This document shows positions 271-60,000 of a stretch of DNA of 64,000 nt, piece after piece. Numbering within the stretch: the stretch's first letter is position 1; each line of letters starts with the position of its first letter. The notes beneath the pieces were generated by a model that was given only the letters and a program-made list of their open reading frames with translations, searched no databases and was not told the origin of the DNA. The stretch lies in the NCBI RefSeq assembly GCF_037975245.1, contig NC_092568.1:19053001-19117000 (forward strand). The letters run 5' to 3'. The position numbers and the translations under genes are program-made. This stretch comes from Apostichopus japonicus (Eukaryota > Echinodermata > Holothuroidea > Aspidochirotida > Stichopodidae).

Positions 271-3200
271 GAGCTCCTGTGGATGATGTATGACCTCAAA
301 CTACTCAAAAGGTAAATCAGAGTATTTACTTTACTCCTCTCTTAACTGGCTCCTACAACACTAACGCACCTTTCCTAGTCTACCTAGACACCACTGGTAT
401 AAATTATAGCACTGCGCCCCCCGGTGACCTCTCCTACGGGTCACCGCACACTGTCTATTCCTCCCGTATTTACCATTCTGAAGAAAACGTGTGTTTAACG
501 AACTCCGTTTTCACTTACGCCATACTGACGTTTCCTTGCACGAAATCTGCTGCTTACCACCGACAAAGGTTCTAGACATAGTTTGCAATAAAAATTGGGT
601 GATCAAACATTATTTCTTGTTAGCTACTCAAAATCTCTGAGCATAAATCTCCTTTAGTATCAGTCAATGCTGCTGCGAGACCATTGTTATTAAAGGCTGA
701 TTTTTTATCTTGTCATCTTATCTTATCAGATCAAATCCTTTGTGTGAGCATTCCTGTCAAATTAAGCTAAGCTGCCTGTGTGCTTTCACTATCTAGGTGA
801 AGAATGAATTCATGTAATCATTGAGTATTTCTGGCAAGTTAATCTGCCAAGTGTTTAACACTAGGTCAGGATCGAATCCAACTCAACTGTTTAGAATTTC
901 TACGAGTCTGCTGTAAAAGCATGCAGAGTAAAGTAAAGAGATGATTGTTCGATTTACTTGTTCTCTATTAGGTCACAAGATATTTTTGCAAGAATGCCAT
1001 TTACTGGGGAATTTTTGTAGAGGATTAATTTATGCTGAAGGTTTCTTTTCCATTAATGACCAATTGCAATAGCGTTAAACTGTACACGTACTGGCACCAT
1101 CCATTTACTTTGTGTCTCTCACATGTAAGAGAAACAAGAAACTGGCCAATTAAAGCAAGAAATTTGAGCATGCAGAATCTTTTCCTGTTCACGTCACAGT
1201 TTTTTTTCCATATCTTCCTCAGATACCCCTTGGCCCTGGGAAATCTAGCTGACCTGGAGAGCGTTGAGTCAACCCCTGGTAGACCCACGACCCAAGATCT
1301 CTTCAAGGAGGCCATAAAGGTGTCCGTAGAGGAGTACGATGATTGTCATGTGTACCCTTACACCTATCTGGGGGGTCACCTGCATCGGGCCAAGGACTAT
1401 GAAGGTGCAATGGCAAATTGGATGGCAGCTGCCAACGTTGTCAGCAAGTAAGACATTCTATTCTCTCTTGGTCGTAGCATTAAAAAGAAAAAAGGCTGGA
1501 TTATATATCTGGAAAAAATCAAATATATTTTATCCAAGTTTCATGATGTAATTTATTGCTAATGTAATGGCTATTGGGTAAGGTTTATTCAGTATTGCTC
1601 TAAAAGCAGCCGTCTGCAAACTTTTAGACTCATGACCCAGGATATGCTGTAAGTACTGATGCCAGGACTTACTAGAAACCCATGCTCGGAGTGCATTTTA
1701 TCTATAGATCTCGGCTACGGACTGCGAAAATGATCAATTTCCGCCGGCAAGCACAGAAAACTGTACATTAATTTTCTTACCTCTGGATAATGCCCTATAG
1801 TTTTCCGACCATCGCTGGTCCTTGTCTTTGTGCAATGTTTTTGCTGTGACGGTATTTGAACATATGTAAATCCTACAGTATAATAATACGTGCCTTGTTG
1901 CAATGTTATACTCATATGAACGGTGGAATACCGTTCCCGCTTCTAAATCATATTGTATCGGGATAAATGAGTATCAGATATTCCAGGTGTTACTGTATTT
2001 GAGGGTTGTCTTGTCTTAGTGCGCTTGCGTTTCCTGAATGGGCACATCACTACGTTGCATGCGGTTTACCAACTCTTTGCTAATAGCTACAATACTTCCA
2101 AACAGATGTACAGGTCTCATTATATCCAAACTTGTACGTGAAACTCCAACATCCCCAGTGCTGTAAAGCATTATCAAGTATATGCTTCATTAAGATAATA
2201 GATTGGTCGGACATTCATAAAATAAGAAAAATCAATATGACAGATATGACAGAAGAAAAATCAAAGATGACAGATATATTGCCAAACTTAAACTGGGATC
2301 CATTGGTCGCTCCATCTTACATTCCCTGTGTTTTTCATAGAATATAATTTGTTCATGGAATAACTTTTAAGTTTAAATAGAGCTTAAAGTTAAGACCAGG
2401 CATTGCTAACCTTTTTAAAAACACCTCCATAATTGAGCGTTTTTGTTTCTTTTCCTTTTTCTTTCGTGAAGGTATAACTATAACAGAGAAGATGAAGAAG
2501 TTTACAAGGAGTTCATGCAGATAGCTAACGACCTAATTCCATCCATTATGAAGGCTGGCTCCACCGTCTTATGTCCGCAAGCCGTAGGCTTCACAAAGTC
2601 CTCCGAGTCCTTCGCCAATTTCCTGAAATTCTACGATGGCATCTGTAAGTGGGAAGAGGAGAGCCAGACTCCGGTCCTGCATATCACGTGGGCCAAAAAC
2701 TTCATCGCCTCGGTCACAAAGTTTCCGGCCAAGGTCAGGGGTCAGGTAAAGGTCGAGGACCCGGAAGGTGACAACGGTTCGACGGAAGACTCGGAGGAGG
2801 GCGAGAGGGCAGAGGCGAAGATCTCAGAGGAGGACGTCGATTCAGGTGTGGAGGACGTCAATAAAAACATAATAAACAAAACAGGAGACGAGAAAGGCGC
2901 CAAGAGAAAGACGGACGGGGCTCGCAGCGAGGGAGACAAACCGAGGTCAAAGGTCAGTACGTGCGTCTCCGAAGAAGAGAGTTTACTCCAGTCCGAGCTA
3001 GGACTGAGCGGCTCGGAAGCCCAAAATACCGTTCTCGACATGAAATCAGACTTTAACGACTTCCTGAGCTCGGTCTCGAATGGAGGCCCATTTCCGGGGA
3101 TGACCATCGAATCGGTCATGAAAGCGGAGAGCCCAGCTGAGATGGCATTTCAGAGGCGGCTGAAGACGCAGCTGTCCCAAGATGATGAAGAGCAGGAGTT

Positions 3201-3456
3201 TGTCATGCCAGATGGGTTGTTTAGAGAGGAGGAGACAGTCTGCGAAAGCCCCCCACCCCCCAAGGTTGAGATTGCATTCAAAAGTTTCAAGATGCGCGGC
3301 ATAAGGGGTATAGTGACCTCGAAGGAAAAGTTGAACACTGCGGCTATTCACCTACAGTTAACCGCCCAATCACAAGTGCAATTTAGCAAGAGAGCCCGTG
3401 CCACGAACGACTACGAAGATTACGGCAGCTTGCGTAGACGGCCGCGCAGACTGTAA
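271..3456 (+). CDS. MEN1: Menin, C-terminal 416 residues (three exons, 5' incomplete)
   Basis: Coding exons are 271-311, 1223-1447 and 2472-3456; each junction has GT/AG and the codons join in phase (AG|A gives Arg, AA|G gives Lys). Menin is a nuclear scaffold that links MLL/KMT2 histone methyltransferases and transcription factors. The translation carries menin hallmarks: ELLWMMYDL, then RYPLALGNLADLE, a PGRP loop, YPYTYLGGH helices, YNYNREDEEVYKEF, FYDGICKWEE, and the near-terminal block IHLQLTAQSQVQ. Between the folded part and that block lies an acidic, Ser/Glu-rich, probably disordered insert (about 2745-3000) that is poorly conserved in the family. The protein ends in a basic RRRPRRL tail, consistent with a nuclear localisation signal. 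Vertebrate menin is about 610 aa, so roughly the first 200 residues lie upstream. The stop codon is TAA at 3454-3456. Confidence 0.94.
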
Positions 3457-14224: not shown

Positions 14225-17200
14225 TTAGTCATCGTCACCTGATTCTATTCCACCCAACTCTGCAGATCGTTTCATGAAGTGATCTTTGAAAGGAAGATTG
14301 AAATCCGGAAAATCGATACCGTCTCCAAATCTTTGTCTCCTCTGTTCTTTCTTCACGATGAGTTCTTTTGTCGACGGGAGCTTGCTCCAGGCTTTCAGAG
14401 GGATGTAGGTGATATCTTCTTTCATCTCTATGCCTCCGGCCATAGCCGATGCCGCCCGTAGGACCGAGCCCTTCCGTTCTCTGGGACTGTTCGTGGGAGA
14501 ATCTTTACCCTGCATGTAGGAAAACCACATTCATACATTTGATATCCTGAAGTTTGCAAAGGACAATGTGACCATTGGTTTTGTTTTTTCTCAATGGTTG
14601 GTTCAGATAATTAATTATGGTTGAATTTGCAACAGCTTCATATTTAACGACAGAAATATTTGGGACGGCGAACATTTTTAATACCTGATTAGCAAATAAT
14701 TCGTGATCGACACAGGCCTGACTTATTATATTTGGAGCAGTTGTTTTTAACGTTCCGACCAAACAAATACTGACAAAATTCAATTTTGTTAACTTTGAAT
14801 AATGTAAATTTTATGGCAGCTGTGTTTGATTTTTCTGTGCCTGAATCACTTACCACAGTAGCCGGTTGTGATGTCATACCCCCTTGAGGTATCGGAGGTA
14901 CCGACTGGGCCCTCTGTGTGGATGACTTCTTTTCTCCCTTTTTATCTTTCTTCTTCTTGTCCTTGCTTGGAGGCGGTAGAGATGCAAATTTAGCTTGGAT
15001 AATCTGCAACACTCTTGGATCAGCCCACCATTTGGCCACATCTAAGGCAGTGTCACCTGCAAAGAAGATGACAAAACATAAAAACATAATAAAGGAAGCT
15101 ACAAAACAAAGAAACAATAAGAAATTAATAGCGAACCGTTCAAGAAATTTAGCTAATTTAAAATTGCCATCAAATTAATGTGAATTGAGGACTACTTCAA
15201 ATTGAATAAGTATCCAATCGTGGTAGCAAAAATGGTAAAGTAGGCCCTTTCTGAACCCTGGCATCCTCAGCTAGAGGATTAATTTGTTATGTCCCTGCAT
15301 CATAAAAAAAACTTGTTGGTAACTATACCAGGACCTTGGACAGGCAGATCAAGGGCCAGTATGTAAGTGCAAGACTCGATATAGAAAGAAAGTGAACTAA
15401 TTACAAAAAAAAATAATAAGAAAAAAAAAGAAGGATGACACAATAAAGGAAAAAGATGTGTTTACCTTTTCTATTTTCCAGAGTACAGTCGCAACCTTTT
15501 TCGATCAAGTATTGCACTATTTCTGGGGAGGATGTTTGAACTGCTCTTATGAGTGGGGTGGCGCCATTCAGAGACTGTGAATTGATGTCTGCTCCACGTC
15601 TTAACAGCAACTGAACTAAATCTAGTTGACCAGAAAGGCAGGCGTGGTGGAGTGGTGTCCATCTGAAATTATCTCTAATAGTTATGTCAGCCCTTTTGCA
15701 CCAAAAAGAGAAAAAGAAAAAAAGCTATTAAGATATTTCCTCCCAAGAAATCAGTTTTTGGAATTATTTAAAAAATTTCCTTATAGGGTCATAATTTTTT
15801 TTAAGTAGTATTTGTTAAATTTGTATTGAATTTGAGGCAGTGAGCAGGGTTGCAAACAGGGTGTTCTCCTCGAGTCGCGATTTAGTTTTGGTCTTGGCAC
15901 ATTTCACACAATAACAGACAAGAAAATAAATTAGCATTTCATCCATTCATTTAAGCAGTAGTAGAATGTTATTGTGTCATTTATTTTTAACAGCCAGTGA
16001 ATAAAAAAAATAGAAATAAAAACATAGACTTTATTTCCTCAAGTTAGTCAAAATTTAGACATTTGAAGATAACAGAGAAATTCCAATGATATTAAACCTA
16101 GCAAATATCAAATCCTTGATCTAAGTTTGAAAGTACAACCCCCCCCCCCCAAAACAAAAAAAAACCCAACAACTGCTCTTTTCTAGAATGGTACCATCTT
16201 CTTATTATTGTAGGAGGAAAACAATTGCTAGCAGTGGTCTTTTTTCTGCCAATGACATTTTATTTGATTGCATTTAAAATTCCTATCTTGTACCAAAATC
16301 AGTTTATACAGATGACAAATTTCTTACCCGTTCGCTAGCAGAAACTCCACCACATCCGTGTTACCCTTAGCACATGCAACCATGAGGGCGGTCTTGAAAT
16401 ATTTGTCCGATGTATCGACTTTGCCTCCGTAATGAAAGCATTGCTGGAGTGAATCCAGGTCGCCCATTGAGGCGGCGTCGTTCATCTTAACGTAAGTGAC
16501 TTCTTGATGATGGAGATACCAGGCGGAGTCGTCCTGTATCGGATGTCTGGGGGGTCTGTCTCGGTCAAATCTACCCGTGTCTGTGAAGGGTACGTGTCGC
16601 TCTATCAGGTACTCGGGTGGTCCACCGAAATCTGTCCTGTCCCCTTCGGGACCCAGACATATCGGCATGGGTACCTTTGTCTTACCCTTCTTACCCTTTT
16701 TGCCCTTTTTACCCTTTTTCCCCTTCTTGTCCTTCTTCTCATACGCCGAGAGTAAATAGGTCTTGTGGACATACTTCTTGGAAGTCATAAAATCACTGTA
16801 GTTGATCACTCCCTCTTTCGTCTTATCGTGAAGTTGGAATAGATTCTTAAAGTCGTCCTCGTCAATCGGAGCGTCCAACGTCATGAGAATATCATAGAAA
16901 TCGTCTCTCGCGATCACTTCATTCTTGTCTGAGTCTAACGTCTCAAAGCGTTCTTTCAGCTTCTCGGTGTTTTCGAGAGTCCAATCGTACAGCCTCACTG
17001 CCCAAGGCTCTGTCGGAGCTTTAGCACCCGACTGAAGTTTCTTGGAGAGCTTCTCAGCTTTCTTGCATTCCTTCAGTGCATCTTTGAAACCGTTATTTTT
17101 GGCGATAGCTTTCGGCAGTAGGCCTTCTTCATTTTTCACATTCGCTTTGCAGCCTGTTTGGATAAATAAATAGCGAAGATGGTATAAGCTCCTGTTTATA

Positions 17201-20200
17201 ATAGTCATACCCAAATTTCATAAACACGTTTGTCATGTGACGAGAAACTGAAAGCATCTCGACTAGCAAAATTAACCAAACTTAGGCAAGATGCTCAAAT
17301 TGTTACACATTGACTACAACTATGCATATAACAGATCTGGTATGTATACCATTTAGTCCTATCAACATGAATGTCATAACTGGTCGACAAACTTAACTAC
17401 AACCTCTGAACAGCTAGAAGTAAAATGTTAGCAGTTCCTATATACACTATTAACTATTCCCTGATATAGATGGTTCACTGTCTATAAACTTTTGAGATGA
17501 GACTATTATCAATTATACCGCTCAAAACCAGCATAAAAACACACTGTCATTTTAGTTTAATTGGTAGACTACAATATGGGGAGATATTTTGTATGCAGCA
17601 AAAGCAGAAGGATAGAAGAAATGCCTCCCTCCCTTCCTTCCATACTCCTGTAAATTTGTTTTTGAGCATGCCTTTCTCATTAATATATTGGTTATGACTT
17701 TTATTCCACTAGTGGCCCAGATCCTAGGAAAAGTACATTGCCACACAGTATGGAATATTTGCTTTATAGTGATACAGTTAACACTGAATTTCAGGATTTT
17801 ATAGGTTGTAGATATTTCGAAAGGACATGATTGTTCCTCTCTGGACAAGATTTATAAATGTACACAAAAACAAAAAACACCAACCAAAAAGAAAAACAAC
17901 AACAAACAACAAAACAATTTTATCTTACTGGTAACATCGCTCAAAAATTCTGATGTTACTAGATACATTTATAAAGTTGACAGGTTTAAAAGCGACCCAC
18001 AAAAACAACATAAATTTGCACATAAATTGCAATTTATATGCAAACTTTAAAACTGTTGAATTGAAAGGAACTTTTTAAAGAAAAAACTATCCTTTGTGTT
18101 TGATAAAATATGGTTTGGTATAGATGACTAACAGACAGACAGACAGACAGACAGACAGAAACATACCTCTCTGTCCGAGATATCGACAAGATTCTGCGAA
18201 CCCTCCCTCTGCAGCGTAATGCAGGGGTGTGTTGAGGATGACGTCAGTGATGCCCAAGTCAGCCCCGAAGCCAGCTAAAATTCGCAGAACTTCAAAATGA
18301 CCTTTCATGGCAGCTCGATGTGCAGGACTCATACCATTCTTGTCGCAAATGTTGACATCTGCACCTTTCTTGACGATGGTTCTTACAATACTAGCACTAC
18401 CACTGCTAGCTGCTGCTGCGAGAGCAGTCTGGCCTGTGGACTGTAGCAAACATTGAGAGGTTAAATGGAAGAAAAAACCCTTTTCATCTTAAGAGGAACT
18501 GACAAATTTGTGAATATTTTAATGTTGCAGTATTTATGAACAGTTGATATTATAGTACACACCAAACTCACCAAGAAAGGTTGGCTCTTCTACTGTATAT
18601 ATTTGCATTAGGGTTTAGTTATCGTTGATTAAAAAATTATGTTGATCAGAGAATAAACCTGGATGTCTAATTCAAGTTGGGAATTTTGTTTTGCTGTAAG
18701 TTTTGTAAAAGATACATGATTACTTATGAACTTGCGTTTTATTTAAATCATGTGTAAAAGTAAGTTGGCCTGACGTTTCAATCCTAGCAGGATCTTCATT
18801 TAGCATTTGAAGAAGGTCCTGCTAGGATCCAAATGTCAGGCCAACTTACTTTTACACATTCTCCTACACAGGCTCTCTAGTGGATAAGCAGTTTGCTAAC
18901 AGTTTTATTTTATTTTTATATTTATTTAAATCATGAAACATTGATTCTCCTGCTAAACTTCAGTTTCTAGGAGAAGAAGTATGATTTTGCTGAGCAAGCA
19001 AATGTAATATTGACATATTATTATTGATCCACATGTCACTATGTAATACATGAGGCTTAGACCATTTACCAATTATTCCAATACAGAAACATTTGTGTCC
19101 CACAATTGATAATGTAGTGAACATTGATTGAATGGCACACATGTGAAATTTATGTCTATCTTGATTGTTTTAGTGTGTGAATCTGGTGGACGTATGTTAT
19201 AGACCTTTTTTGAGGTAACTCATCTTGTTTACTTGGTCAAGTCAAGTACTTAGTCTTAGACAAAGTAAATGCAAAATGCAGCTTTAAAATAACAACACTC
19301 TTCTATTGCAAACACAATATTGATAAAGACAATGCCCCAATTATCAAATATTAACCATTTTCCACTACAGATACTTTCATTAACGATATTTACGATACAA
19401 TCATTAATGTACTGAACATTTTTTAAATGCCTAACTTCATAATTTTGAGTGTGAATTTGGTGGAATAAGGTAAAAGATTGTTTACATTGATCGATTGTTT
19501 CAAGACAACTTATCTTTACTTTCTTGGTCAAGCTACAGTAGCTAAGATGACTTTGACAATAGTAAATGCAAAATACAGTTTTAAAATAACAAAATTTGTC
19601 ATATTATAATTACAGCATTGGAAAAGACAAAGCTCCAATTGTCTCTGTAGTTAATTAAATAAATAAGTGAAATAAAAAATCTTTGTTTTTGTTTAGAGAT
19701 TAGAAAAAGTTCACTCACTGGATGAACACTGTTAGGATCAGCTGCATGATCGAGCAGGAGTTGACAGATCTTCTCGTTTTCATTTGCCTCAAAACAGGCC
19801 AGGACCAATAGCGGCATGCCATCGTTACCTACGTTATTGCAATCGGCGTTGTTTTCGATGACCATCTCTGCGCATCTTGTGTGTCGGCTGGTAGGCAGAA
19901 TGCAGTAAAAGAGAATTCCTGTAACATATGAAAAGGAAAAAGAAACCATAACAATTAACAACAAAATGTAGAATTATTGAGAATACTTACAGCTCAAAAA
20001 TTACTTTTCAAATATTAGAGATCAGCATCTTTGACTGTAATTTCTTGCATTTTTAAATTTGCCAATTGGGCCTCAATGTACTTGCCTTAAAAGCTTAAGG
20101 TTTGTCTCCAATCAAATTTGTTTTCTGCATTGTAGATGTTACGGAGTTTTCCAGGCATTTTCCAAAGGCAGCCCTACAACTGACTGAATATGATTTTTGC

Positions 20201-20962
20201 AGACCTTTATTGTAACTATTTACAAATGTTTTGTTCTGGGCTTTAACATATACCTCTAGTTAATTGTTTCTGGAAGGAATAAAACTTGTTTTCTGAAGTG
20301 AATTTAAAATACAAAAGTACTTAAAATGTAGTTTGCCTCTTAACCTCTAAACCTGTGACATTTTTTTGCAAAGCAAAGTCATTTATTTTAACATTTTCTC
20401 TTTTCATTATTATTAAATTGTCTTTCAATGAAAATAAAATTGTAAAGTAAAAACAGACACCTATGAAATAAGCACAGAGTGCCATTTTATATAGCTAAAG
20501 AACCTTTGGAAGCTACTGATGAATTTGGTTGTGATAGCATAGTCATGGGATCCATACAACATCTACTGTATTCAAAGAACTTTACCTTTTCCATCTATAT
20601 CTGTGGTTGTCATATCCGCGTCAGCAGTTGCTAGAACCTCCAGTGTCTGAACATGTCCAAACTCTGCCGCCCTCATTGCCGCAGTTCTACCTTTCAGATC
20701 GACAACATTAGGATGTGCACCCAGTTCCAGAATAAACTTAACCATTTCTTCATCGTTTACCCTGGATGCCAGATGTAAGCCTGTCTCTCCATTTTCTGGC
20801 TCACTGTAGTTGATGAGATGAGGAATACCGCTGGAGCAAAGTTTCTCAATCTGAGGCTTGTCTCTCTTACGTACACACTGCAGCAACTTGTGTGTTTGTA
20901 GAATCTCTAATCTGGTCTGTGCAACAGGCATCTTGAATGCTTCCAACTGCTTCAGATGAATT
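14225..20962 (-). CDS. ANKEF1: Ankyrin repeat and EF-hand domain-containing protein 1, complete CDS, 786 aa
   Basis: Minus-strand coding exons are 20586-20931 (ATG at 20931), 19719-19918, 18167-18440, 16328-17153, 15466-15692, 14854-15056 and 14225-14509 (stop TAA). All have GT/AG borders and the phases join without error to 787 codons; human ANKEF1 is about 776 aa. The first coding exon extends upstream to an acceptor at 20963-20964, so a 5' UTR exon is expected. N-terminal ankyrin repeats (LHLASRVNDEEMVKFILELG, HRAAMKGHFEVLRILAGFG) are followed near residue 345 by an EF-hand loop DSDKNEVIARDD, a second degenerate loop, a Lys/Gly-rich KKGKKGKKGKKGK stretch and the family block RHPIQDDSAWYL. 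C-terminal ankyrin repeats follow (DNFRWTPLHHACLSG). In mammals the gene is testis- and axoneme-linked. Calcium binding by the first loop is inferred only. Confidence 0.95.
18130..18159. repeat. (GACA)n microsatellite beside an ANKEF1 splice donor
   Basis: About 7 GACA units on the plus strand. In the ANKEF1 transcript this is a (CUGU)n tract that begins roughly 8 nt into the intron, after the donor GTATGT of exon 18167-18440. Confidence 0.9.
18751..18858. repeat. Large near-perfect palindrome with hammerhead-like sequence
   Basis: The arms 18751-18798 and 18808-18858 are inverted copies with a few mismatches around a 9-base loop. Each arm contains the string TGAAGA, a short hairpin around CCTGCTAGG, and GAAACGTC or a decayed version of it. 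This resembles the hammerhead-ribozyme-like modules of invertebrate retroelements. It lies in an ANKEF1 intron. Confidence 0.8.
19010..19650. repeat. About 297-bp diverged tandem duplication in an ANKEF1 intron
   Basis: Two successive units share landmarks in the same order, for example GTAAATGCAAAATGCAG at 19265 and its near copy at 19562. Both units also contain TTGGTCAAG, a TGAACATT block and an AAAGACAA block. Neither unit is coding. Confidence 0.75.
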
Positions 20963-22615
20963 CTGTTGATAAAAATGATAAGCAAAGCACATGCAGGTTT
21001 ATGTTCCATAGTAGTGCATTCTATGTCATTCAAGAATTTTGGTTAGCACTGAAGTGAAAGCTAACGTAACGTCATCATTGCGGTAAGTTCCTGACCTAGT
21101 ACAATCAGTTTAAAGTTTCACAGTTTTGAGGTTTCTTTTGTTAGCTTAATTTGTTTTCTCATGGTTATTCATCAGTTCATGTCCTGTGGGTTCCACTGTT
21201 TTAAGGTAAAACTTTGTACAGTTAAACTAGCCAGACGGAAGTTGCTTCTGATGAAGGCCTATAGTTAGCCAGCTAACAGTTTCTGTCAGCAGGCTAAATA
21301 AATGTTAGTAAAACTTACACAGTTAGAGTAACACAACGTTACTTTAACTAAAGACTTAGCCTTTTAAATACGATAATACAGGCTAGTAAAAGTAGTTGTA
21401 AATGGGATTATCCTGATGACTGGTCACAACTCACATGCTTGGCTTAAAACACAAACTTAATATGTATGGCTATGTTACTTGTTAGTAACAGTAACTTATA
21501 AGTTACTACGTTATTCAATTGGTTCTGGGTTACTGTTACAGTTAGTGTTACTTACTGAGTTACTCTAGACTTTACTTATAGTCTACACGTCCGAATCCAC
21601 GCATGTTAAAGTTGTCGGAATCACTCAAGTTTGCCAATGTTTCACGTTAACGTTACAACATCATGTCTTCGTAGTGGGCGAAATTTGTAAGAAGGGATAC
21701 TGAGTAACGTTATTCTCTTCGCGATGAAAGGTATCGTTAGGTTAGTTGTGCTTGTAAGTTGCAACATAGGCTACTGGGTCCTTACACTTGACGGGAATAG
21801 AATGTGTACTAAATCAGCCTGTATATACAGTGTTCTTCCGGTATCATTCATTGATCGCATTGCCCTACATACGTGCACATATAACTGCTTCAACCGTTTT
21901 CACGTTACAACTGTATATACAATGTTGCTGTAGCAACGCGCAAGGCTTTAGGTTGTACAGTACTAAATGACGGACCATTGCTATTAGCAGAGACAATCGA
22001 TTAGCGATTATTCTCGGCTGATGAGCGGCAGCGCAGTATATGACATTTTATCCTAGACTGTTTGGCAATGCTTCGGTGTATTTTACACTATATCATATTT
22101 TTAAACACATCATCATATAGCTCCCAACTTCTGTAACCAATGATACCTACAATCTTGGCCCAGGATTGCCAAATAAACTGACAAATCTTTTTCTATATGA
22201 CGGGGAATCATGGAGGGACAACACATTTGTATTTAACTGAAATTAAATAAATCCAGGGTTTCTTTAATTCGCAAGAAAGTTTCTTTAATAAAGAAGAACA
22301 GAAGAAGGAACTTTCCTATACTCGCGAAAACTGCCTACCTTCAAAGTTTTCGCAACTAAATTTGGTTTTGTCTGGTGAATTCAGGGTCGTTGATGCCACG
22401 GTTGCCCAAATAGGATATTGGAAATATATTTTATGTTTGTTTCGCCGAATCATGTTACAATTTTCCATAAAATTCAACCGTACGATTTGAAATTGTTTGC
22501 TTTTCATTTCGAAATTAGATTTGTTAAGTTCCTCGCAATGTTGACGTTTTGTCTATATATGTTCGTTTGAAGTTTGAAGTATCAACTCTATGAGTCGAAT
22601 TTAGACGATTTGGCA
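20963..22615. other. ANKEF1 upstream region
   Basis: No coding exon is supported. The part 21060-21680 is rich in GTTAC/GTAAC strings. An X-box-like site lies at 21924-21937. The ANKEF1 transcription start is presumably here, because the first coding exon opens at a splice acceptor. Confidence 0.45.
21924..21937. promoter_or_regulatory. X-box (RFX-type) motif upstream of ANKEF1
   Basis: The 14-base sequence GTTGCTGTAGCAAC is a perfect inverted pair of RFX half-sites with a 2-base spacer and fits the consensus RYYNYY(N1-3)RRNRAC. It is about 1 kb upstream of the ANKEF1 ATG, where an upstream non-coding exon and promoter are expected. RFX factors control cilium and flagellum genes, which fits the known biology of ANKEF1. 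Binding here is inference. Confidence 0.55.
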
Positions 22616-28434: not shown

Positions 28435-30206
28435 CTACTTCTTGATGGACATATTCAATAGATCCGCGCATGCCCACAATGTGCCGGCACCTGTTATCAG
28501 CACAACTCCGAGGTATATCATGCGGTCCTTCCCACCACCTTTTAGGTGAACAGGTTGGCCATCACTTTCCTGCATTTGGGAGGGAGAGAGAGAGAAGGCA
28601 AAGTGAGGAAGGGCTCAGGATCTATAACAAAGTTACTGTTATATTTTCAGTATGAAAACATACCAAGTTTTCTGTACGATAACTGTTCAAACGACATTTG
28701 CACTTTTCTGCTAACCGTAAATGACATTTGAGCTTCAATTTGTGAAGACTTCATGTGGTAAATGAAAGCTACCGTTCACATTTATCAACTTGTCTTAGGT
28801 GAACTTCTTGTGACAGATTGTGCTTTTGCTAACCTTGACTGAGAAAGACGATAGGGTACCCATTAACAGTGAAGCCACATGTCAGCTAAGTAAAGTGTGA
28901 GGTCGTATTTCATGATGAGAGCCAAACACACAATACAACATACATATTGAATTCAGGTGACGTGACTTGACAACAGTTGCCTGTCCTTCTAAATAAAAGA
29001 AGATGAGCAGGAAACCATTACAACCTACTAATTTGCTAAATTCAAGCTACTTTTCGACACTCAATCAATTTAAAAATTGCAAAAAGACATACCATCAATC
29101 ATTGATAATGCTGAGAACAGTCCTGTGTGGCCAAAATAACTACAAATTATACATACAGTGTCACTATTGGAATAAATTTACCTGAAATCTCAGTTGCTGA
29201 TTTTTCACTTTGTTTTCCACCTGAGACCGTATGGAGGTCGAAAATGTCCTTGAGGCTCTAGGGACCAAGCAACGTATAACCTGTAACAAGAGACGGCAAA
29301 TAACAGAAAAAAAAATTGAAATGAGGTTTAAGGGAAAGAAAATATATATGTAACAGAAATACATCAGGTTAAATTTAGTACTAGTGTAATAAATCAAATA
29401 ATGGAGATCAAAGCCTTTAATCGGGACATAAACCTAACCATCATCAACAATGTAGCCTATTGTTAGGCCGTATCTATGTAAATCCCGCTTCTTTTTTAAA
29501 CTTCCCTATTTTGATAACGGCTGTTCAAAGTTGCTTCCTACAGTAATATTATTGCATACTTAACATGACTGAATTTAAATAAAAGTATATTCATTTTCTT
29601 GTCAAAATGTCAACAACAGATAGTGATATAGTGTTGAACTGTAGAGTGGAGTTGCAGGTTGGTCGAGGCAGGTTGGCTGTAACTGAAACTCTTTACTTAT
29701 ACATGAGACAAATAAACAACTTAACAGGAAGGAGGTCTGTGTGCAACTGAATATATTAACAGTAACTCTCTTGAGGCTGTATTATGTCCCTGTTAAATAA
29801 TAGTTTTGAGCACCTGGAAAGGGAATGCACTCAGGCATGCCTCATTACAATAATACACTTATATACAAGTAGTCACAGTAGTAGTGTTCATAAATTACAA
29901 ATTGGTAGGTCTACAATATCTGACCTGATCTGCCAGAATTGGAGTATCTCCTTGCAATCAAAGATACCCAGTCATAGTTTATGACAGTATGTCATATATA
30001 TTTACTAGCTCTTCATCAAGCAGTGGGAAATGTAGCTTTTAGCATAAAACTTTTTGGGTGATTCAAAAGGACAAAGTGTACCCAAAAATGCCTGTGTAAA
30101 AATAGCCATTGATGAGCTTACAGTATTGTTGCCAAATACAATAGGCGTGGCTTCTTGTACTTATTAGTGCAGCAGTTCTGGGAATAGTATACATTATTAC
30201 CGCCAT
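28435..30206 (-). CDS. COX7A: Cytochrome c oxidase subunit 7A (canonical mitochondrial form), about 79 aa
   Basis: Minus-strand exons are 29182-29280 and 28435-28569 (stop TAG), both phase 0 with GT/AG borders. A probable first exon is 30201-30206, ATGGCG followed by GT. Joined, the protein starts MAVIRCLVPRASRTFSTSIR, an Arg/Ser-rich mitochondrial presequence. It continues NKVKNQQLRFQ, then ESDGQPVHLKGGGKDRMIY and one hydrophobic membrane helix ending in NMSIKK. This matches COX7A1/COX7A2 in order and length (vertebrate forms are about 80 aa). The product is a single-pass subunit of respiratory complex IV in the inner mitochondrial membrane. The first exon is the weak point: its donor GTAATA is unremarkable, and it rests on length and start context. 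Confidence 0.88.
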
Positions 30207-30211
30207 GTTGT
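30201..30211 (-). promoter_or_regulatory. YY1-like site overlapping the proposed COX7A start codon
   Basis: The minus strand reads ACAACATGGCG followed by G, matching the YY1-type consensus AANATGGCGG. Such sites overlap transcription or translation starts of many nuclear-encoded mitochondrial genes in animals. This supports, but does not prove, the first-exon placement. Confidence 0.4.
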
Positions 30212-31401
30212 GCAATACGAATATTGTACACAAAAATCTGATCCATACAGGAAAAATGACTTACAAAATTGATAAATTGGTATTAAACTTGCTGTCACTT
30301 TCGAGATACTGAAAGTGGGCCTATGATCCACCTGACGGGGAGTTTTTCTGGCCCATTGCCGATGGTCTATTTATGAAACTTACACATCTCTCCTGCAGTG
30401 TACATATTCTGTTATTTTGCTGTTTTCTCGGAAAACAAATTTACTGTTTGGACAACCAACAAGAACGACCTGGCTGTCCAAACAAAACAACTAAGAACTA
30501 AAATTAGGCCTGCAGCAGGAATGGAGTCTACCAGTATCAAAACTACCCTAGGACTAAGGATTGGCATATTTGATGGTATACAGTAAATTCATAATGATAC
30601 TAGGCCTATGGGCATAAATGTTGTTTTAATTTAAATGATAGCTGTGATGTCGATCTCGCTGATTTTATTCAGTGATTTAGTTCTATCCTTCAGCAATGTG
30701 ATTTCATCGATGCTTTGACAATATTATGCCAAAAATAGAAAGAATTATACTTGTACAGGTAAGAAGTCAAACTGCTTGAACAAGTTATTAAAGTAAAAAT
30801 TCCCAAACTTTGTGCATGCATGCATTAAGGTTTGCTGTATAATTAATTCCGCTAAAGGGGTGGAATCATCCACAAAAACGTTCCTTTGTTTAATTTTTTA
30901 TACAAGTGTGAACCAACCCAGCAACTTTACAACATAATCAAACTTTAGGGCTAAGTTAGTAATAGAGTTAGTAGTTCAGTGCAACTAAACTACACATACA
31001 GTAGCCTAGGATAGTGCGAAATGTGTCGAATAAGTTAGATTAGGCCTAGGCTCAGTGAGGCTAATGTTAGGCTAGGTTTGTGTATGTGTATGTATAAACA
31101 ACTCTGAGTCTGGCAGTACAATTGTCCAAGGAATCGTCTTACCGATACACTATTCATTTCGCCTGTTTTCAGTGCAATTGTTCAAACAAGCTGATGGTTA
31201 AGAACACACTGGTTCTTCTCTCTTCTTTGGTCAAATCGTTCACGGGCGCCTACGTGACTGAATTAGTGCAGGATCGGGTAGACAGATTTATCAGGCTGAG
31301 TATACATTCTATACTTTTTAAATAGCGCCAGCATTTTCAGCTTCACTCGAACCTAATGTAGCAAAGTAACTACTGTATTGCTTCAAGATCAAGTTCAAAA
31401 G
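30207..31401. promoter_or_regulatory. Shared head-to-head promoter region of two COX7A genes
   Basis: About 1.2 kb separates the proposed start codons of the minus-strand COX7A gene and the plus-strand COX7A2L-like gene. No other gene is supported in it. No TATA box stands out. Co-regulation from a bidirectional promoter is inference from arrangement. Confidence 0.4.
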
Positions 31402-34071
31402 ATGTCTTCTGATGTAAAGTTCGATTCTTTCAAGGGCAGACTTGCAAGCCATGGAGGTTCTGCAGTTCCCTCTGTGAGTTGCAGTCTTTTCCTCCTCTTT
31501 TCTGATAGATTCCACCTTCAGGTTAACCAGTTAAACTTAAAGCCTAACCATTAACATGGTGTATAGGCTACTGTATGCAGGCACAACTTAGTTTACAGTA
31601 GCCTATGATGGGGTACCGTTATTTTCCGCACACGTTACTTTCCGCTGAAACAAAACGGTGTTTTCCGCTGACAAATTTGTCAGCGGAAAGCAACTTTTTT
31701 TTCAGCGGAAAGTACCGTTTTTTGGGAGGAACAGAATGACTTACTGAAATGATTAGGCACATGGAAGGATTTAGGAGGATGGAGAGATAGGCAGATAGAT
31801 GTAACAGGATAAAATGTAGCTTCGAGACTAGATTATTATTAGGATAGCTAAGGTTGTAGCTTAGGCTGTAAGCACTAGCTTAGGCTGTAGGCCCTAATCC
31901 CAAGTTTAATTTTTTAAATCGGCCATGATTTTAGATGTAACTCGTAAGAAAGGTGTTGCAAAATGCACGTTCGGGTCTTAAAACAGCCCTTACTTATACA
32001 GCCATTTCCAGCGAAAATCAAAAAAGATACCGCCTTTTACATTTTTTTTCAAACCATGATTACGCGGACCGCAGTTTAAATACTTTATTAGATACTCAAT
32101 CCTTCATAACGCGGGCGTCCCTTTGCCCTTTTATCCGCCGACCGCCTCATACTTCTTTAATAATCCCTAATTACAAACACCCCAAGCCTCCTGTAAATTA
32201 TAAGCAGCTTAACTTTTCTGACATGAACTCAGTCTAACCATCCTTTAGCAACGTTCTTTGATACTTTCTCATGTTATTTTAATCATCCTGCCTGAATTTG
32301 GTATCCTTAAATTGAGGAAAAATATAGTGTACAGGTAAGTGAAAAAAAATGTTTTCCGCACAAGAATTTTTCAGCGGAAAGTAATCTGCGGAAAGTAACG
32401 TATGCGGAAAACAACTGAAACCCTGTCCGTCACTATCGGGTAGGTTAGGTTAGGTCTAACTTTTGTAAGCCTAGTAAAAATAGTAATACATAAGGCCTAC
32501 TCTCAATGGGAAGAATGCTGTCTCCTTTAATCAGGACTGAAAGTATCCCCCACCCCAAATATTAAAGAGGGTGCTGATGTTCACATGCACATGAGTGTGT
32601 TCTCGCGATAGTATTACTCTGATTCAGAAATCTGTGAATAGAACAGATTATGCCTGTTACAACTGATTTGGCATTGCCCTCTGCAAAACTGCTGTTGAGC
32701 CCCATTGGAAGGTTAACCATTCAACCTAGACCTGCCACAGTACTTTCTGTTGTTATAATTTATTAAGTCATAATGTTACAACAAATTTATGGTGTAGCAA
32801 AATCACCTGGCAGTCTTATCTCCTCCTCCCCCTTCCCTTTTGGAATTAAACTAATCACATGGCCTTTATTTCAATAAAGACCCCCTATAATTTATTGTGA
32901 ATGCTAACTTGTAATCCTGACATTGTCAAACTTGTTTGAATGGCCTATGGTCATGTCACGATTATTAAGGGTATGTGTAACTTACATGGCGATATATTTA
33001 AAAAATCGCAGCTCTGCAGCTTTGAACATAAATAATTCAGCTCTAAGAGCATTATGGTTATCATTGATCTTAAACATACTTGACTTTTTTTATTTCCCAG
33101 ATGAAATATTCCCACTAGAAATTCTGAGTATTTAATTTTTTAACTCGCAATTTTCTGCCAAATTATGTTATTGTAACTTTAATAGTACATATCTTTTCTT
33201 GCAGGGATTAAGTGCAACTACTGTAAAGGAATCACCAAAGCTGATCTGGGCTCAGAATCCCCATCCACCAGCTCCTGGTTTTTGGGATGATTATCCTCGA
33301 AATCTAGTGAAAAAGTATCAGACATATTTTCAGGTACTGTACACATTATGAGAACAATGCCACATAGGCTAGTAAACTTGAAAAACTTGGAAATTTGCAA
33401 GGGACAGAGTTAAGGCAAGCTACAGTATCCAAACTTTGGTTATTATCTTTCATACACAAAGTTTTCTTCCATGGTGTGTTAATAATGAATCTTGATAGAT
33501 AATAGATGGTACTATTCTCATTGCAAAAGTCAATTGAGCTACAGTATGACATCACTTTTATATTCAGGTAGTAGATTCCAGAAAGATGCAGCTAATTACA
33601 TCCTCGAAAATCCAATAGATCTTTGCATCCCTGGTTTTTTTTGTATGTGTTATGTGAATCTGATGAAGTATGAGGGCTTTTACCAAAGTTGCCTAGAAGT
33701 TCTTTATCCTGTAACCAACACATAGAAAATGCATTGTTAACTTGGGTGACAAGAATCCCAAGATGGCAAGAGCTTTTCACTAGAAAATTCTTTTAGGATG
33801 TGAAACACCTTTATACTGTATGTCGTCATGCAGGGAGGTATTTGAGGCACGGAAATTATGTACTATTCTAGTTTAAAAAAATTGGCTTTTTTTCTGCAAA
33901 TGATCAATTTTTCTTCTTCTTTTCATCATATGACAGAAAAGTGATGGCTTACCAGTACATTTGAAGAAAGGAATGAAAGACAGGCTTATATACTCAAGCA
34001 CAATGGGTATCACAATCTTTGGAACAATATTTGCCTGTTATACTCTTTATAAAATGACTAAAAAGGATTAA
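31402..34071 (+). CDS. COX7A2L: COX7A2L / SCAF1-like protein, 111 aa
   Basis: Exons are 31402-31473 (ATG in good context, donor TCT|GTGAGT), 33205-33333 and 33937-34071 (stop TAA), all phase 0. The N-terminus reads VKFDSFKGRLAS, close to the start of vertebrate COX7A2L (KFSGFTQKLAG). A Pro-rich linker follows (NPHPPAPGFWDDYP), then the COX7A core RNLVKKYQTYFQ joined to KSDGLPVHLKKGMKDRLIY and one membrane helix. Vertebrate COX7A2L is 114 aa, so length agrees. In mammals this protein joins complex III to complex IV in respiratory supercomplexes; the same role here is inferred. The intron after YFQ is at the same place and phase as the intron after RFQ in the opposite-strand COX7A gene. Intron 1 holds a MITE (31611-32423). 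Confidence 0.88.
31611..32423. mobile_element. MITE with repeated TTTCCGC inverted ends
   Basis: The left end (GGGTACC then GTTATTTTCCGCACACG and TTACTTTCCGC) matches the reverse complement of the right end (GTTGTTTTCCGCATACG, TTACTTTCCGC), giving TIRs of about 31-40 bp with an indel. Further subterminal copies of TTTCCGCTGA lie in both orientations, including the palindrome around TGACAAATTTGTCA. There is no transposase and the target duplication is unresolved. It lies in intron 1 of the COX7A2L-like gene. Confidence 0.75.
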
Positions 34072-34688: not shown

Positions 34689-35033
34689 CTATGCGACATG
34701 CTCAGTGATTAACCTCCGCCATGTATCACGATCTTGTGCAAGGTTTATTGCTTCCTCGAAATTGTTAATGTTAACGTCCTTAAATTGCGACTTTATTTTT
34801 CCAAGCAAGGTAGTCACGGGCCTTCCTACTGGTTTAGCAGTATGTCTCAATGCTTCTCTTAAAGCAACCTTTGCTGGAGCGTCCTCCTGGAGTCTTGCTA
34901 CATGATCGGAAAATCTCAATCTTCTATGTGCGACTATGTTGGACAAAATAAATTTGTGGTTCAGCTGATCGGAGGCTGGGAAAACCAGTTTTATTTCATC
35001 TGTTTGGACACCAAATTTGCTGTTTGAAAACAA
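34689..35033 (-). pseudogene. LINE-type retrotransposon fragment (region C-terminal to reverse transcriptase)
   Basis: A 114-codon minus-strand frame contains RRLRFSDHVARLQEDAPAKV, followed by REALRHTAKPVGRPVTTLLG and LAQDRDTWRRLI. This pattern (R-[IL]-R-[WF]-x-x-H-V-x-R, then GRP-[RV]-x-[ST], then a DR-x-x-W-R-R block) is typical of the segment just after the reverse transcriptase in non-LTR retrotransposons. The reverse transcriptase itself is missing, so it is a 5'-truncated remnant. The clade is not determined. Confidence 0.72.
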
Positions 35034-54051: not shown

Positions 54052-57000
54052 TCAGATGCGCACAATTCTAGCAGCAGCTCTGTTTGTAATACTGGTGTCT
54101 GCCTTTTGTCCAGGCTGAATGACAAGCTCAGCAAAAGTACCCCCTCCTTGTCCTTTCGATAGCCTGCCTGGGTTTATGCACAGGGTGCCATCTATGTCCT
54201 AGAAGAAGAAGAAAAGGATCAATAGATCAAGTTAGTGTGATTCATGATATGATAAACCATAAAATATTACAACAATTGTAGCACCACAGTAACAAAAATG
54301 TACTTCATATCACAGTTTTGATTAATATAACATATGTAGCCCAGGTATATGTCTTTCACACAGAGTAGTAGTAGGATTCAGACAATAATGCCAGCTTACT
54401 TTGATAAAGTATCGCATATCCGACGGAGCTATGAAGACGTGAGGTTTGACTGTCAGACGAGCGTATTCCTCGTAGTGTGCGTAGTCTATGGGAACATCCT
54501 CGGGTGGTGGATGAACTGGGTAGAAGCTCTGTTGGGTGAAGATGTGTTTCATCAAACGACCCAGCCTGTCACCAGTCGTAGCAGTTCTGTTGAGAAAAAT
54601 ATTGCAAGGTTAAATGTCATCAGTATTGCCAACAACTTAAAGAGTTTTAAAAATATTTAAAACCTCCAAATGCGCTTTCCTAGAGGTTCTGAACAATAAA
54701 ATATTACTAACTGCAGGGAAATGCTTTCACCATGGATGTAAAATGGTAATTGAAGTTTGTACATGAGTGACCATTATTGGAGTATAGTATTGATGCCTTT
54801 TTGAAAAATTTAACATATTGAGAGTATGGACACATTTGATCAAATGTGACCACGTTTGGTCTTCATAGCATATTTTGTTGCAATCATTATCGTAAGGAAT
54901 CAAGACTAAAGTCACTCGGTTTCAAAAGCAAAATGACCCAAATAAATCTTACTTTCTGGTCTCCAAAATATAATTAAGAGATTAAAGAAACTTGTGGCAG
55001 CGAGTGGTGGATGGTAAGAAAGCATCCATAAACAAATGAGTGAGCTATGAGCACATTTTTCAACTTAGTGCATCTTTACATGATTAGACTTTACTCCCAT
55101 TGATAAGGGGGAAAAAATTGAGATTTTATTAATTACCCTGAAATTTCCTCTTTTCCAAGGTGCAAGAGAACATCTGTTGACGTTGCACCAAACACGATTC
55201 CATTAGCTGTGAAGGTAGATGGTTCCGATACAAAATGAAGTCTCTAGATAGAAACAGGGAGAGAGAGATATCATAAACCTCGTAGAAAATTTCCTTTTAA
55301 TTTCTTAAAGCATACTCCAGCAATAGTGTATAGGTCATGATTAACAGGTAAATGAAAAGTAATGAAAGAAGGTAATAATTGAACAAAAAAGAAGAAAAAA
55401 AGAAGAAAAAAGGAAGAAAAAAAAGAAGAAAAAAGAGAGAAAGCATTGAGGATCAATGTTGTTTATTTTATACACATTTCACAATGACTGCACACTCCAC
55501 CCCCCTCCCCCACCCTCCCCCACCCTCCCCCACCCTCCCCCACCCTCCCCCACATGATTCTACTGACTGGTAAAAATGACTCCTCTCCGCAATCAATTCA
55601 TTAATAAACTGACATGTGTTTACCCTTTCTACCTACCCTTGAAGTAAACTCTAACAGTGCAAACAGTGTTTAGGAAAGCTGCTGTTCTCAAAATGGACAT
55701 TGTCGGCAAAGGAGAGTTTGTGCCATAAATTATGCACTTTGTCAAAGGCTATGGCTTGGTCTGCTGATAAGATTTCTAGAATGTTTCTCCGCTATGGGGT
55801 GTTTACACATGTTTTGTGCATTAACTAGTTTCACATCATCTATCATTATGATCTAATTTTCAAACTGAAAACTTTGGAAATGCTTTTAATTAGGTACTAA
55901 TTTCCAGCTTCATCAGGAGACCGTTTGTCGTAAGATGATTGCCACATTCAGAAATTTTTGTGCCATTCATCAGGCTTGGGTTAGTAACCTGTCTCTTGGT
56001 CTGCAACCAAAAATCTTTTTTTTTCTTCATATTTTGCCTCAAGTTTTTCATACGTATTTCGTCATTGCAAGATAAATGAACTTAAAATCCACTGTTAGTC
56101 TGCTACTGTTCTTAAAACAAAGGCAATCGATTTTACCATTCAAAGTCTAAATGTTCTACATAGCAACCATCACCTACTGTACTGTTTGCCCTTCCTGTCT
56201 TCAGTGAGAATCTGAAAACTCTGTACAAAATTTATCTATGGAACAAAGACAAACATCTTTCAAAATTCCCTGAATGTGGGAAATTGGTGAAGTACCACCC
56301 ATATCATGTAGAGAATGCCTAATCTGGTTATAACCATTCATAAGAAGTATGATCGCCTAGCAACCTACTTCAGTCTTGCCACGAGGGAGATCATCAAATG
56401 GAGGTTGAGGATAGACAAAATCATGATGGACGTCCCGTAGTGAAGGTAGAACTACTAACTGTGTCCCGCTCCTGAGGATTAAAAATATTTTTACGTTGCA
56501 ATATTAGGACTAGAAAGGCAGAAACGTGTTTGCAGATTAAAGTCAATACAGTTAGTTGTATGAGTGATAGCAACGACAGGCATGCAGAGATATGTTAAAC
56601 AAGTTATGACTTTTTAAAGGAAATATTAAACTATCTTAACCTTTTGTAGCAGATGTTCCTATGGCCTGTCTAGTTTGCATTTCATCAGTTTTGTGTTTCA
56701 TCAGATTATAACAAAACGTTTACATAATAAAAGTCACAAAATACACAAATAAATAATTAAATATATTAAAGGGAATGAAAACTTGTTACTGTATAAAACA
56801 CATGAACAAACAAAGTTGTAGTATATTGTGTTGTTATCATTTAATTGTACGTATTATTGCACATTTGGCGCACCATGATACTTGGGGTCATTTCGGAGGT
56901 CAACTTATAAATGTGACATGTTGTTGTTGTTGAGTAGCTCGATTGTTTGCTTGGTTATTTCTGAATCTGGTCTCATTTGGCCCCAGAGTATCACTAAAGT

Positions 57001-60000
57001 CATGCTTCTTTTCCACTGGAACAAATTAAGTCATTCAGCAAGGTGGTAAAACCATCTTTTCAGCCTTCAAAAATATTCTTAAAGGGTGTAAAGACTCGCG
57101 CACAAAGAAACGTCTCATGCCGGTAATCTGACCTAGTTTCGAATGAGGTGTAACAGAAGTGTTAGAAACCACCATCCATCGCAGAAAATACACACACAGC
57201 TTACTACCATTGGTAATTAGATACTAGTGTACAGTCAATACATACAGCTACGGTCAATACCCACAACACAGTGTACATAGCAGTGTGGACATCTCAGGTC
57301 TAGATAAAAGATAAGGTATCACGTTTCATTACTGTCTGCATTTTGTAGCGACAAGAAGAAAACGTCATTTGCAAGCAACGGAAAGTTAACTTTTTCAGAG
57401 TGCGGAACACAGTTTGGAGTGCTTCAATGCCTTTAAGGTTTGACATTGAACATACTGTATGTACTAAAAAGGAACTACCTTTCCCAAATATGCAACACAG
57501 CCCTACAGAATACAACAGTGACTATGGATATACTCAACTATGGATGTATTCTTGCCTGGGTATGGTATCATGATTATCATTGGTTGGTTATACTTATACT
57601 TACCCTTCAGTGTTCTTGAGAATCTCTTGCATGCAACACAGGAATAGCTCTGGAAAAGTTTTATCAATGTTGCCACTCTACAGACAAGAGGAAAAGTGGA
57701 AAAGGTAATATCAATATTATTTACACATTTCACAAAAGGTAAGCTTGGTTATTTAAGTAATAAAACGAAATCAAAAATGCTAAGTTAACCATCAGGAAAC
57801 AATGGGATAATAACGAAAAATGATTTTCCATTGTATGTAACCAAACAATTGAAATGTATAGAAACTGTTTATTTTGGGGGGAACTATGAACATTTTCTAT
57901 TCTTGCTTTGTACAGGACTGTCATGAAATTACAGGCATGACATTTTCTCAGCAGGCTTAAGTAAAGTATAACGCACAGCTCTGTGACATCAGGGGAAGTA
58001 TCAAGGGTAACAGTATCATGCAATTTTGTTTTGAGGGTTCACATACTTAACAAAAATAACACTAACGCATAACACAAAGATACAGTAGAAATACAGTCCG
58101 ACAAAAGTGGACGACTTTAATTTTTTAACATTTAATGAATTTCAAATAATCCTCTTGTAAGAGCATATTCATCAACATTTTATTACTTACTGATATTTGC
58201 TCTTGATTACAGTCAACAAATGGTCCAAACTGTGTGAAAATAGATGACAAAGAGAAGAAATTTGAGCTGGATTTATTCCATAAACACATATGACTATATC
58301 ATGCAATTCTATAACTCAGTCCGAAAAATGGATCAGGAAGAAACTCCACATTCAGTACTCTTGAAAAATTGAAACCTGAAATGCTGCATTTTGAAACCCT
58401 TCGACAGATTTTGAAAGCATAGTTGAACCAAGTCAATCGATCGATCGATTCAAAACCCTCTAAAATTGAAATGAACGAACTGTTGAGCTTTTACCATAAG
58501 GAAAGCTTGATAAAATTCACAAAATGACAAAACCGTTGACAATTTGGTTCTAGAAACAATGAGGGAAGGACACATGCATGATTGTAAATCCCAGAGTAGT
58601 GAGATTGCGATGTTGTGTCCTCTCGTGATAAGTAAAATCCATCAGGGACCTGCTTGACCAGCAGCACTTATTTGGATCTTAGAATACAATTATTTCTAAC
58701 AAGAAAACTTTTATGTAAACTTTTTTTTTAAGTTTCTTCTAATCAAACTCTAATGATCTCTTCTTGTTGCCTTATGAAGAGCCAGAAAGACCGGATAATA
58801 GATACTTTTACCCTAGCCAGCGATCAGATAAGTGATTATTTGCCTAAATTACGCTTTAGTTTATTAGAAGATTCTGTTGACCCGGTTGTATTGAGAATTA
58901 AAATAAGCATACATGTGTTTAGAACCAGCAGCCATACCATTATACAGACATCTGGTGATTTGGTGTTGATTATCTGACACAGATCTTCCAGTGGTTCATA
59001 GCTCAAACTGTCTGAGGTCGTAAAAGGTCCTGCTGCCATGACAACATGGAGAGAGCCATGGTTAGATAAACTGGAGTCTATATCTTTAGGAGAAGATGGG
59101 CTCACTCCCTACAAGTATGGAAAACAAAGGAAAGTTCTTAATGGGGGTGACATTGGCTATGAGTAGAATGGTACTTGGTAATTGCTGTAATTATGGTGAA
59201 TAAGCTTTCTATCAAGGTGGGGTCTAGGGTTGGGGATGTGGAGGGGAGTGAAGGCACAACTTCAATTACACAAGGGAAATACCCTACTACAACAATCACA
59301 TAAAAAATATTTGGAAAAGTTTAACTTGTTTCAATTTGAAATCCAATCTATATTCTTGCAACAAACCTATTACCTGCTTACAACAAAAAGAACATGACTA
59401 AAAATCATATCGGTACTGTTAACCTTTTGCTACAAACATAGCCAACAAATTATCCACATGAACAGCCACTTGTTTATTTTGCAAGTATCCAGTGCTATGA
59501 TTACATTGTTGACCAACACTACAGGGAGATGTTAACTTGTGCAGCTCTTTTGTCCTGGTTTACAAGGATTATTTTAGAATCTTTTTAAATAAACTTAAGA
59601 GAATCACAGCTCTCCAGAATGTGCCGTATTTGTTCCCTTTTAAAATGTTAGTATGCTTGTCTTTAAGGGCAATAGTGATGTATGGGCATTAGTGATGGCC
59701 AAAATCTTACCTCATATATTTTTGACGCTACCATGTGACTTCCAGTACTGTTGATACCCTCAAGTGCAATTATTTGTCCCGGAAAGAGTGAATAATTGTT
59801 CACCTCGGTCAACTTCAACGGCACCCGTTTTCCGGCCGATGTCTCTACCGATCCCTCTAAGAGGACTGATTGCGGATTTAGCTTGCCAACACTATCGCAA
59901 CAAATCCTTCCCACCACAGATACTTTCTCCTGCAATAAATCAGGATATCATAGAAAACATATATATAGTTGATCCGATGTCACACAGCAAAAATGCTACT

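Follow-up and report, generated by a model that had tools for sequence, protein, structure and literature searches.

The stretch of the Apostichopus japonicus genome analysed here (NCBI RefSeq assembly GCF_037975245.1, contig NC_092568.1, positions 19,053,001 to 19,117,000; 64,000 nt, hereafter the window) contains two genes of the COX7A family, a COX7A gene on the minus strand and a gene resembling COX7A2L (also called COX7RP or SCAF1) on the plus strand, which lie head to head and which, as argued below, probably go back to an inverted local duplication that took place before the echinoderm and vertebrate lineages separated. The features that make up this pair are the following.

28435..28569, minus strand: COX7A coding exon 3 (ESDG..., membrane core, stop), identified by the gene model, Pfam, PDB and the genome search
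29182..29280, minus strand: COX7A coding exon 2 (presequence and start of the mature protein, ending in RFQ), identified by the gene model, the PDB match and shuffles of the N-terminus
31143..31157, minus strand: putative COX7A coding exon 1 (MNSVS), the best donor candidate (GTAAGA, phase 0)
31158..31401, no strand: interval between the start codons (244 bp), a candidate bidirectional promoter, studied by base composition and motif scan
31402..31473, plus strand: COX7A2L-like coding exon 1 (KFxSF...LA arm), identified by the gene model, the PDB match and shuffles
33205..33333, plus strand: COX7A2L-like coding exon 2 (remainder of the arm, ending in YFQ), identified by the gene model, the PDB match and the genome search
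33937..34071, plus strand: COX7A2L-like coding exon 3 (KSDG..., membrane core, stop), identified by the gene model, Pfam, PDB and the genome search

The products predicted from the DNA comprise 82 amino acids (aa) for COX7A and 111 aa for the COX7A2L-like gene. All four introns are of the GT-AG type and in phase 0, the second intron of either gene directly follows Phe-Gln, and the last coding exon counts 135 nt in both, the stop codon included. The original prediction of divergent COX7A and COX7A2L-like genes with three coding exons each and a matching phase-0 intron after Phe-Gln is borne out by the gene models, in coordinates and strands alike; its figure of 6 kb describes the whole span of the pair, which is tighter than this suggests, with the start codons on opposite strands only 244 bp apart. 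In-frame stop codons precede the starts at -48 in the plus gene and at -27 in the minus gene. The weakest part of the minus gene model is its tiny first exon: when first exons of up to 117 nt were sought in the 2.1 kb that separate the plus start from COX7A exon 2, six candidates combined an ATG with a donor above 3 bits, and the 15-nt exon has the best of these (7.4 bits, the next reaching 4.6), as scored with a textbook matrix. Intron 1 of the COX7A2L-like gene harbours a segment (31617-32413) that resembles a short DNA transposon, with near-matching inverted ends (TTTTCCGCACACGTTACTTTCCGC at the left) recognised by eye and with approximate limits.

Both proteins pass the cut-off of the Pfam family COX7a (PF02238; 28.1 and 23.9 bits against 22.1). 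The best PDB match of the plus protein is Cox7a2l (7o37_I, E 2.7e-16), aligned over residues 6-107 and thus including the arm, while that of the minus protein is COX7A2 (8pw5_w, E 5.2e-13), with the presequence included; the PDB chains compared in this work are, we presume, from mouse, cattle, pig and human. Protein searches of the sea cucumber's own 671.6-Mb assembly with the minus protein and with COX7A2 returned the two paired genes only. With the plus protein, besides the exons of its own gene and the minus gene, a single weak match on C23 came up (E 0.069), which was rejected as a family member owing to three internal stop codons. No further credible COX7A-family gene was found in the 671.6 Mb, with stretches absent from the searched sequence and the loose first step of the search allowing for a missed copy. 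A search of the genome with the PF02238 profile reported nothing at E 0.001, although both genes are present, probably because their exons are short, and this result is not counted as absence. Apparently, the genome carries one COX7A and one COX7A2L-type gene.

The N-terminal modules assign the two genes to different classes. The plus arm aligns to the 7A2L arm (7o37_I) better than nearly all of its shuffled versions (3 of 2000 are as good, and 8 of 5000 in another run) and does not match any of three COX7A presequences (1361, 1815 and 1844 of 2000 shuffles as good), in a comparison that comprised one vertebrate 7A2L arm and these three presequences. The minus presequence behaves in the opposite way: it matches the presequences of 8pw5_w (7A2; 6 of 2000) and 2y69_J (7A1; 9 of 2000), less clearly that of 9i6f_J (7A2; 63 of 2000), and not the 7A2L arm (1430 of 2000). 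Within the core, 8 of 48 columns split the two classes across all seven sequences, the class residues being defined by one vertebrate 7A2L chain and four 7A1/7A2 chains. These columns include the residue after FQ, which is K in the 7A2L class and E in the COX7A class (A in chain 8ugh_4J), and the variable position of HLK(x)G, which is K/R in the former and G in the latter. The plus gene exhibits the COX7A2L/SCAF1 residues at both positions, and the minus gene combines a COX7A1/COX7A2 presequence with an HLKGG core. The best local alignment of the arm ends at residue 41 (...KLIWA), and for the residues that follow, NPHPPAPGFWDDYPR, no clear counterpart is seen. The assignment of the plus gene to the COX7A2L/SCAF1 class and of the minus gene to the COX7A class is supported by these N-terminal modules.

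In our opinion the pair probably represents ancient inverted paralogues of the COX7A and COX7A2L/SCAF1 types, which a local head-to-head duplication would have produced before the echinoderm-vertebrate split and which were retained in this genome. An ancestral chromosome, later quadrupled in vertebrates, would have held both genes, presumably already as neighbours, since they are adjacent here. Two rounds of vertebrate genome duplication would then have copied the pair, with COX7A2L and COX7A1 surviving on different copies and COX7A2 lying elsewhere.

The chromosomal surroundings of the pair provide real support for a preserved ancestral pair. Human COX7A2L is located at 2p21 with MTA3 and HAAO close by, MYO6 and TMEM30A lie near COX7A2 at 6q14, MEN1 and POLA2 are located at 11q13 and ANKEF1 at 20p12, and human 2p is a member of the same paralogon as regions of chromosomes 14, 20, 11 and 19. 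The sea cucumber's own genome, in which the COX7A pair sits on chromosome C8 at 19.08 Mb, was searched for five markers (MTA, EHD, EML, POLR2I and HAAO) and for two controls. Four of the five markers could be placed, and the top match of each of these four is on C8: all three MTA matches (23.73 Mb), the best EHD match (7.36 Mb, 77% identical), two POLR2I matches (37.94 Mb, 70% identical) and six of seven EML matches at E 1e-5 or better (37.7-37.8 and 41.5 Mb), the last identifying the family and not a specific orthologue. Both controls, neighbours of human COX7A2, map elsewhere (the MYO6 tail to C21, CDC50/TMEM30 to C15). C8 measures at least 41.5 Mb, or 6.2% of the assembly, and if this is its length and the markers are independent, four of four would fall on it by chance with a probability of about 1.5e-5. 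With regard to the human counterparts, EML4 is reported to end 997 bp from COX7A2L (PMC9584823), the order POLR2I-CAPNS1-COX7A1 to be kept in mammals, on chromosome 19 in human (PMC3380836), and TBCB to accompany the COX7A1 neighbourhood in tables for cattle and pig (PMC6389681, PMC8292486). Published work also traces regions of human chromosomes 14, 20, 11 and 19 back to a single ancestral linkage group in chordates (PMC3560075) and assigns EHD to a paralogon that is represented on human 11 and 19 (PMC6298421). C8 carries the surroundings of both human COX7A2L and human COX7A1, which speaks for an old inverted duplication, with dispersal of the vertebrate descendants after genome duplication.

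Several observations weigh against the proposed ancient pair and its joint control. Within the linkage data, one of the seven EML matches is on C4, weaker relatives of EHD and POLR2I are found on C14 (45%) and C17 (40%), and no HAAO match was found in the genome, a result that does not prove absence. The 244-bp interval shows no match to the NRF-1, ETS, YY1, cAMP response element (CRE), E-box, Sp1, oestrogen-related receptor element (ERRE), TATA or CCAAT patterns. Further points come from the core. A phylogeny had been named in the original prediction as the test that could refute it; run on the 48-residue core (seven sequences, LG+G4), it favours a tree that joins the two echinoderm genes (log-likelihood -511.6, approximately unbiased (AU) test 0.80), while the topology put forward there, with plus grouped with COX7A2L and minus with COX7A, is not rejected (log-likelihood -515.8, AU 0.24). 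With the two genes swapped, the tree fails the AU test (0.033), but the Kishino-Hasegawa (0.09) and Shimodaira-Hasegawa (0.10) tests do not reject it. The tree contains few reference sequences, all of them, as we take it, mammalian. The plus and minus cores agree at 27 of 48 positions, more than the plus core shares with 7A2L (22/48), and the plus core is as close to 7A2 (8pw5_w, 23/48), its supposed paralogue; the minus core shares 17-22 of 48 residues with the four 7A1/7A2 chains, to be compared with 20/48 for 7A2L, and seven core columns are common to the echinoderm pair only. The distinction between two gene classes holds for the N-terminal modules and is not reproduced by the core tree, and the proposed preservation of a local duplication draws on those modules, the single pair, its head-to-head arrangement and the C8 linkage.

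The main rival of an ancestral pair is a duplication confined to the echinoderm or ambulacrarian line, in which case the SCAF1-like arm would either be an ancestral feature that COX7A lost on two occasions, or have been acquired two times. We regard it as unlikely. The best core tree, the seven residues unique to the pair and the failure of the plus core to approach 7A2L more closely than 7A2 all speak in its favour, as does adjacency, which is typical for younger duplicates. On the other hand, such a duplication requires that the two N-terminal modules, which match their own vertebrate classes only, were both lost or gained independently, and it leaves the co-location of the COX7A2L and COX7A1 surroundings on C8 unexplained. 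Nor can the duplication be young, since in exon 3 the two genes have only 15 of 45 third codon positions in common; together with the informative same-residue codons of the last exons, 9 of 23 of which are identical, this rules out a recent gene conversion between these exons. If the pair is ancestral, the core residues common to both echinoderm genes may be read as a joint adaptation to one binding pocket or as the trace of a very old conversion.

Alternatively, the two genes may be old paralogues that lay apart on one ancestral chromosome and were joined secondarily by an intrachromosomal rearrangement in this lineage. The gene order of C8 is much shuffled (markers at 7.4, 23.7, 37.7-37.9 and 41.5 Mb, the pair at 19.1 Mb), as such a history would lead one to expect; yet a chance head-to-head meeting at a distance of 244 bp seems far less likely than retention, and both genes possess the same phase-0 intron and 135-nt last exon, so that we consider secondary joining improbable.

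Regardless of the origin of the pair, its short intergenic interval raises the question of common regulation. Shared-promoter control of the two genes is plausible because of the 244-bp gap, and head-to-head genes with start sites less than 1 kb apart are described as tending to co-expression (PMC4089025). The composition of the interval is unremarkable for this DNA (GC 0.41, 8 CpG, a count reached by 23% of 244-bp windows); it contains one ACGTGAC (31252), one GGCGCC (31245) and five initiator (Inr)-like matches, where 6.5 are expected. The adjacency could also be a passive relic, the two genes having independent promoters or being active one at a time in different tissues, without functional coupling. 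This is a serious possibility, if one that we hold to be somewhat less probable than its opposite, and it is compatible with an ancient inverted duplication. It agrees with the fact that no known respiratory-gene regulatory motif was recognised in the gap, but fits less well with the frequent co-expression of head-to-head genes within 1 kb (PMC4089025) and with the size of the gap, which would leave little space for two separate promoters.

The properties of the mammalian proteins suggest what the pair might do. SCAF1 is reported to take the place of COX7A in complex IV, with its N-terminus entering complex III (PMC9696846), two organisations of the respiratory chain are defined by COX7A2 or SCAF1, and SCAF1 is described as the sole dedicated supercomplex assembly factor identified so far (both PMC10626428). 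Zebrafish has COX7A2L as well, and its III2+IV bands vanish without this protein (PMC7332985). By analogy, the plus and minus proteins would occupy the same site of complex IV, the minus protein yielding stand-alone complex IV and the plus protein extending its arm into complex III, so as to tether the two complexes, and one short divergent promoter region would couple the supply of the two alternatives. Or perhaps the plus gene encodes a COX7A variant that has the arm but does not link complexes III and IV? This is doubtful, though compatible with the proposed ancient origin: the arm alignment stops at residue 41 and the stretch NPHPPAPGFWDDYPR that follows lacks a clear counterpart, while the conserved part is the N-terminus, i.e. 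the reported complex III contact in mouse (PMC9696846). More speculatively, and we put this forward as a tentative idea, the pair might be an undisturbed ancestral locus for supercomplex control, in which one divergent promoter sets the ratio of two competitors for the complex IV site and hence of free complex IV to complex IV tied to complex III. If so, SCAF1 would predate vertebrates and would have been born by inverted duplication beside COX7A, vertebrates would have freed both genes from joint control when genome duplication separated the surviving copies, and the core residues common to the pair would record a joint adaptation to the same complex IV pocket.

Comparison with known systems reveals both likeness and difference. 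The human COX7A2L gene lies, as we assume, far from every other COX7A gene. The plus protein shares with vertebrate COX7A2L/COX7RP/SCAF1 a COX7A core preceded by an N-terminal arm starting KFxSF...LA, the K after the FQ intron site and the basic residue in HLK(K/R)G, and its gene has three exons, as reported for human (E1-E3, PMC9584823); it differs in that its core is nearer to its own COX7A (27/48) than to mammalian 7A2L (22/48), and in that it starts 244 bp from COX7A, whereas the human gene adjoins EML4 (PMC9584823). The minus protein resembles COX7A1 and COX7A2 in its presequence, which is rich in Arg and contains an R(T/S)(F/I)S motif, in the E after FQ and in HLKGG. However, one such gene was found here as opposed to two in mammals, and its membrane part is divergent, with 5-6 of 21 residues identical to three mammalian 7A chains. 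Drosophila, with COX7A, COX7AL and COX7AL2, likewise exhibits several COX7A paralogues in an invertebrate, but D. melanogaster is stated to be without a COX7A2L homologue (PMC10569793). As in other bidirectional gene pairs, the genes are divergent and their start codons far less than 1 kb apart; what sets this pair apart is that its products are paralogues which, by analogy, would compete for one enzyme site. Among the matches listed from the open-licence PMC literature, the work on SCAF1 concerns mammals and zebrafish, and neither an invertebrate COX7A2L nor a head-to-head COX7A/COX7A2L pair is described. The gene kinds themselves are known; what is new is their arrangement and the occurrence of the SCAF1 type outside vertebrates, beside COX7A. 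If the arm is homologous, SCAF1 originated before the echinoderm-vertebrate split, and the pair suggests inverted local duplication as the likely mode of its birth. With apparently one COX7A and one SCAF1, this animal also offers a system for the competition at complex IV without additional isoforms.

Apart from the pair, parts of three further genes were recognised in the window.

1029..3453, plus strand: part of the menin (MEN1) gene, recognised in two open frames, with limits running from stop to stop
16327..21042, minus strand: ANKEF1 gene, part, one frame matching the ANKEF1 chain 9fqr_Ol (E 5.8e-62)
54325..59947, minus strand: part of the gene for DNA polymerase alpha subunit B (POLA2), recognised in two frames

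Two more frames with ankyrin repeats in the ANKEF1 region are assumed to be part of that gene. Menin, ANKEF1, the COX7A pair and POLA2 are found together between 1029 and 59947, within one 64-kb window. We take them to match several of the arms that make up a single vertebrate paralogon (11q13, 20p12, 19q13 and 2p21), and the window may be useful for reconstructing that ancestral paralogon chromosome. Several plus-strand frames at 39483-44637 apparently belong to one coiled-coil gene, which in our judgement resembles CCDC170; three of its five frames gave generic coiled-coil Pfam matches below the cut-offs and two gave none, and no PDB match was obtained for the single frame searched. Between this gene and POLA2 lies a transposon remnant with a hAT transposase dimerisation domain (48568-49260, plus strand; Pfam E 2.7e-8). 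Two minus-strand frames (8672-9388 and 34692-35039) have no Pfam match and presumably are retroelement-like, namely the end of a Penelope-like element and the end of a LINE (long interspersed nuclear element) reverse transcriptase.

Elsewhere in the assembly, in the mitochondrial cox1 gene on C35, the codon AAA stands against Asn at 9 of 10 aligned sites, AGA against Ser at 4 of 6 and TGA against Trp at 8 of 8. At this locus (L009) cox1 (1-1551) is followed by a frame that resembles nad4L (1615-1923) and then by one that resembles cox2 (from 1910), the latter two names being our assumption. The code marks an echinoderm, and so, we presume, does the gene order. A second copy of cox1, in pieces, is present on C29 (15137-16119, L010); it may represent mitochondrial DNA copied into the nucleus or else a duplicate created by the assembly.

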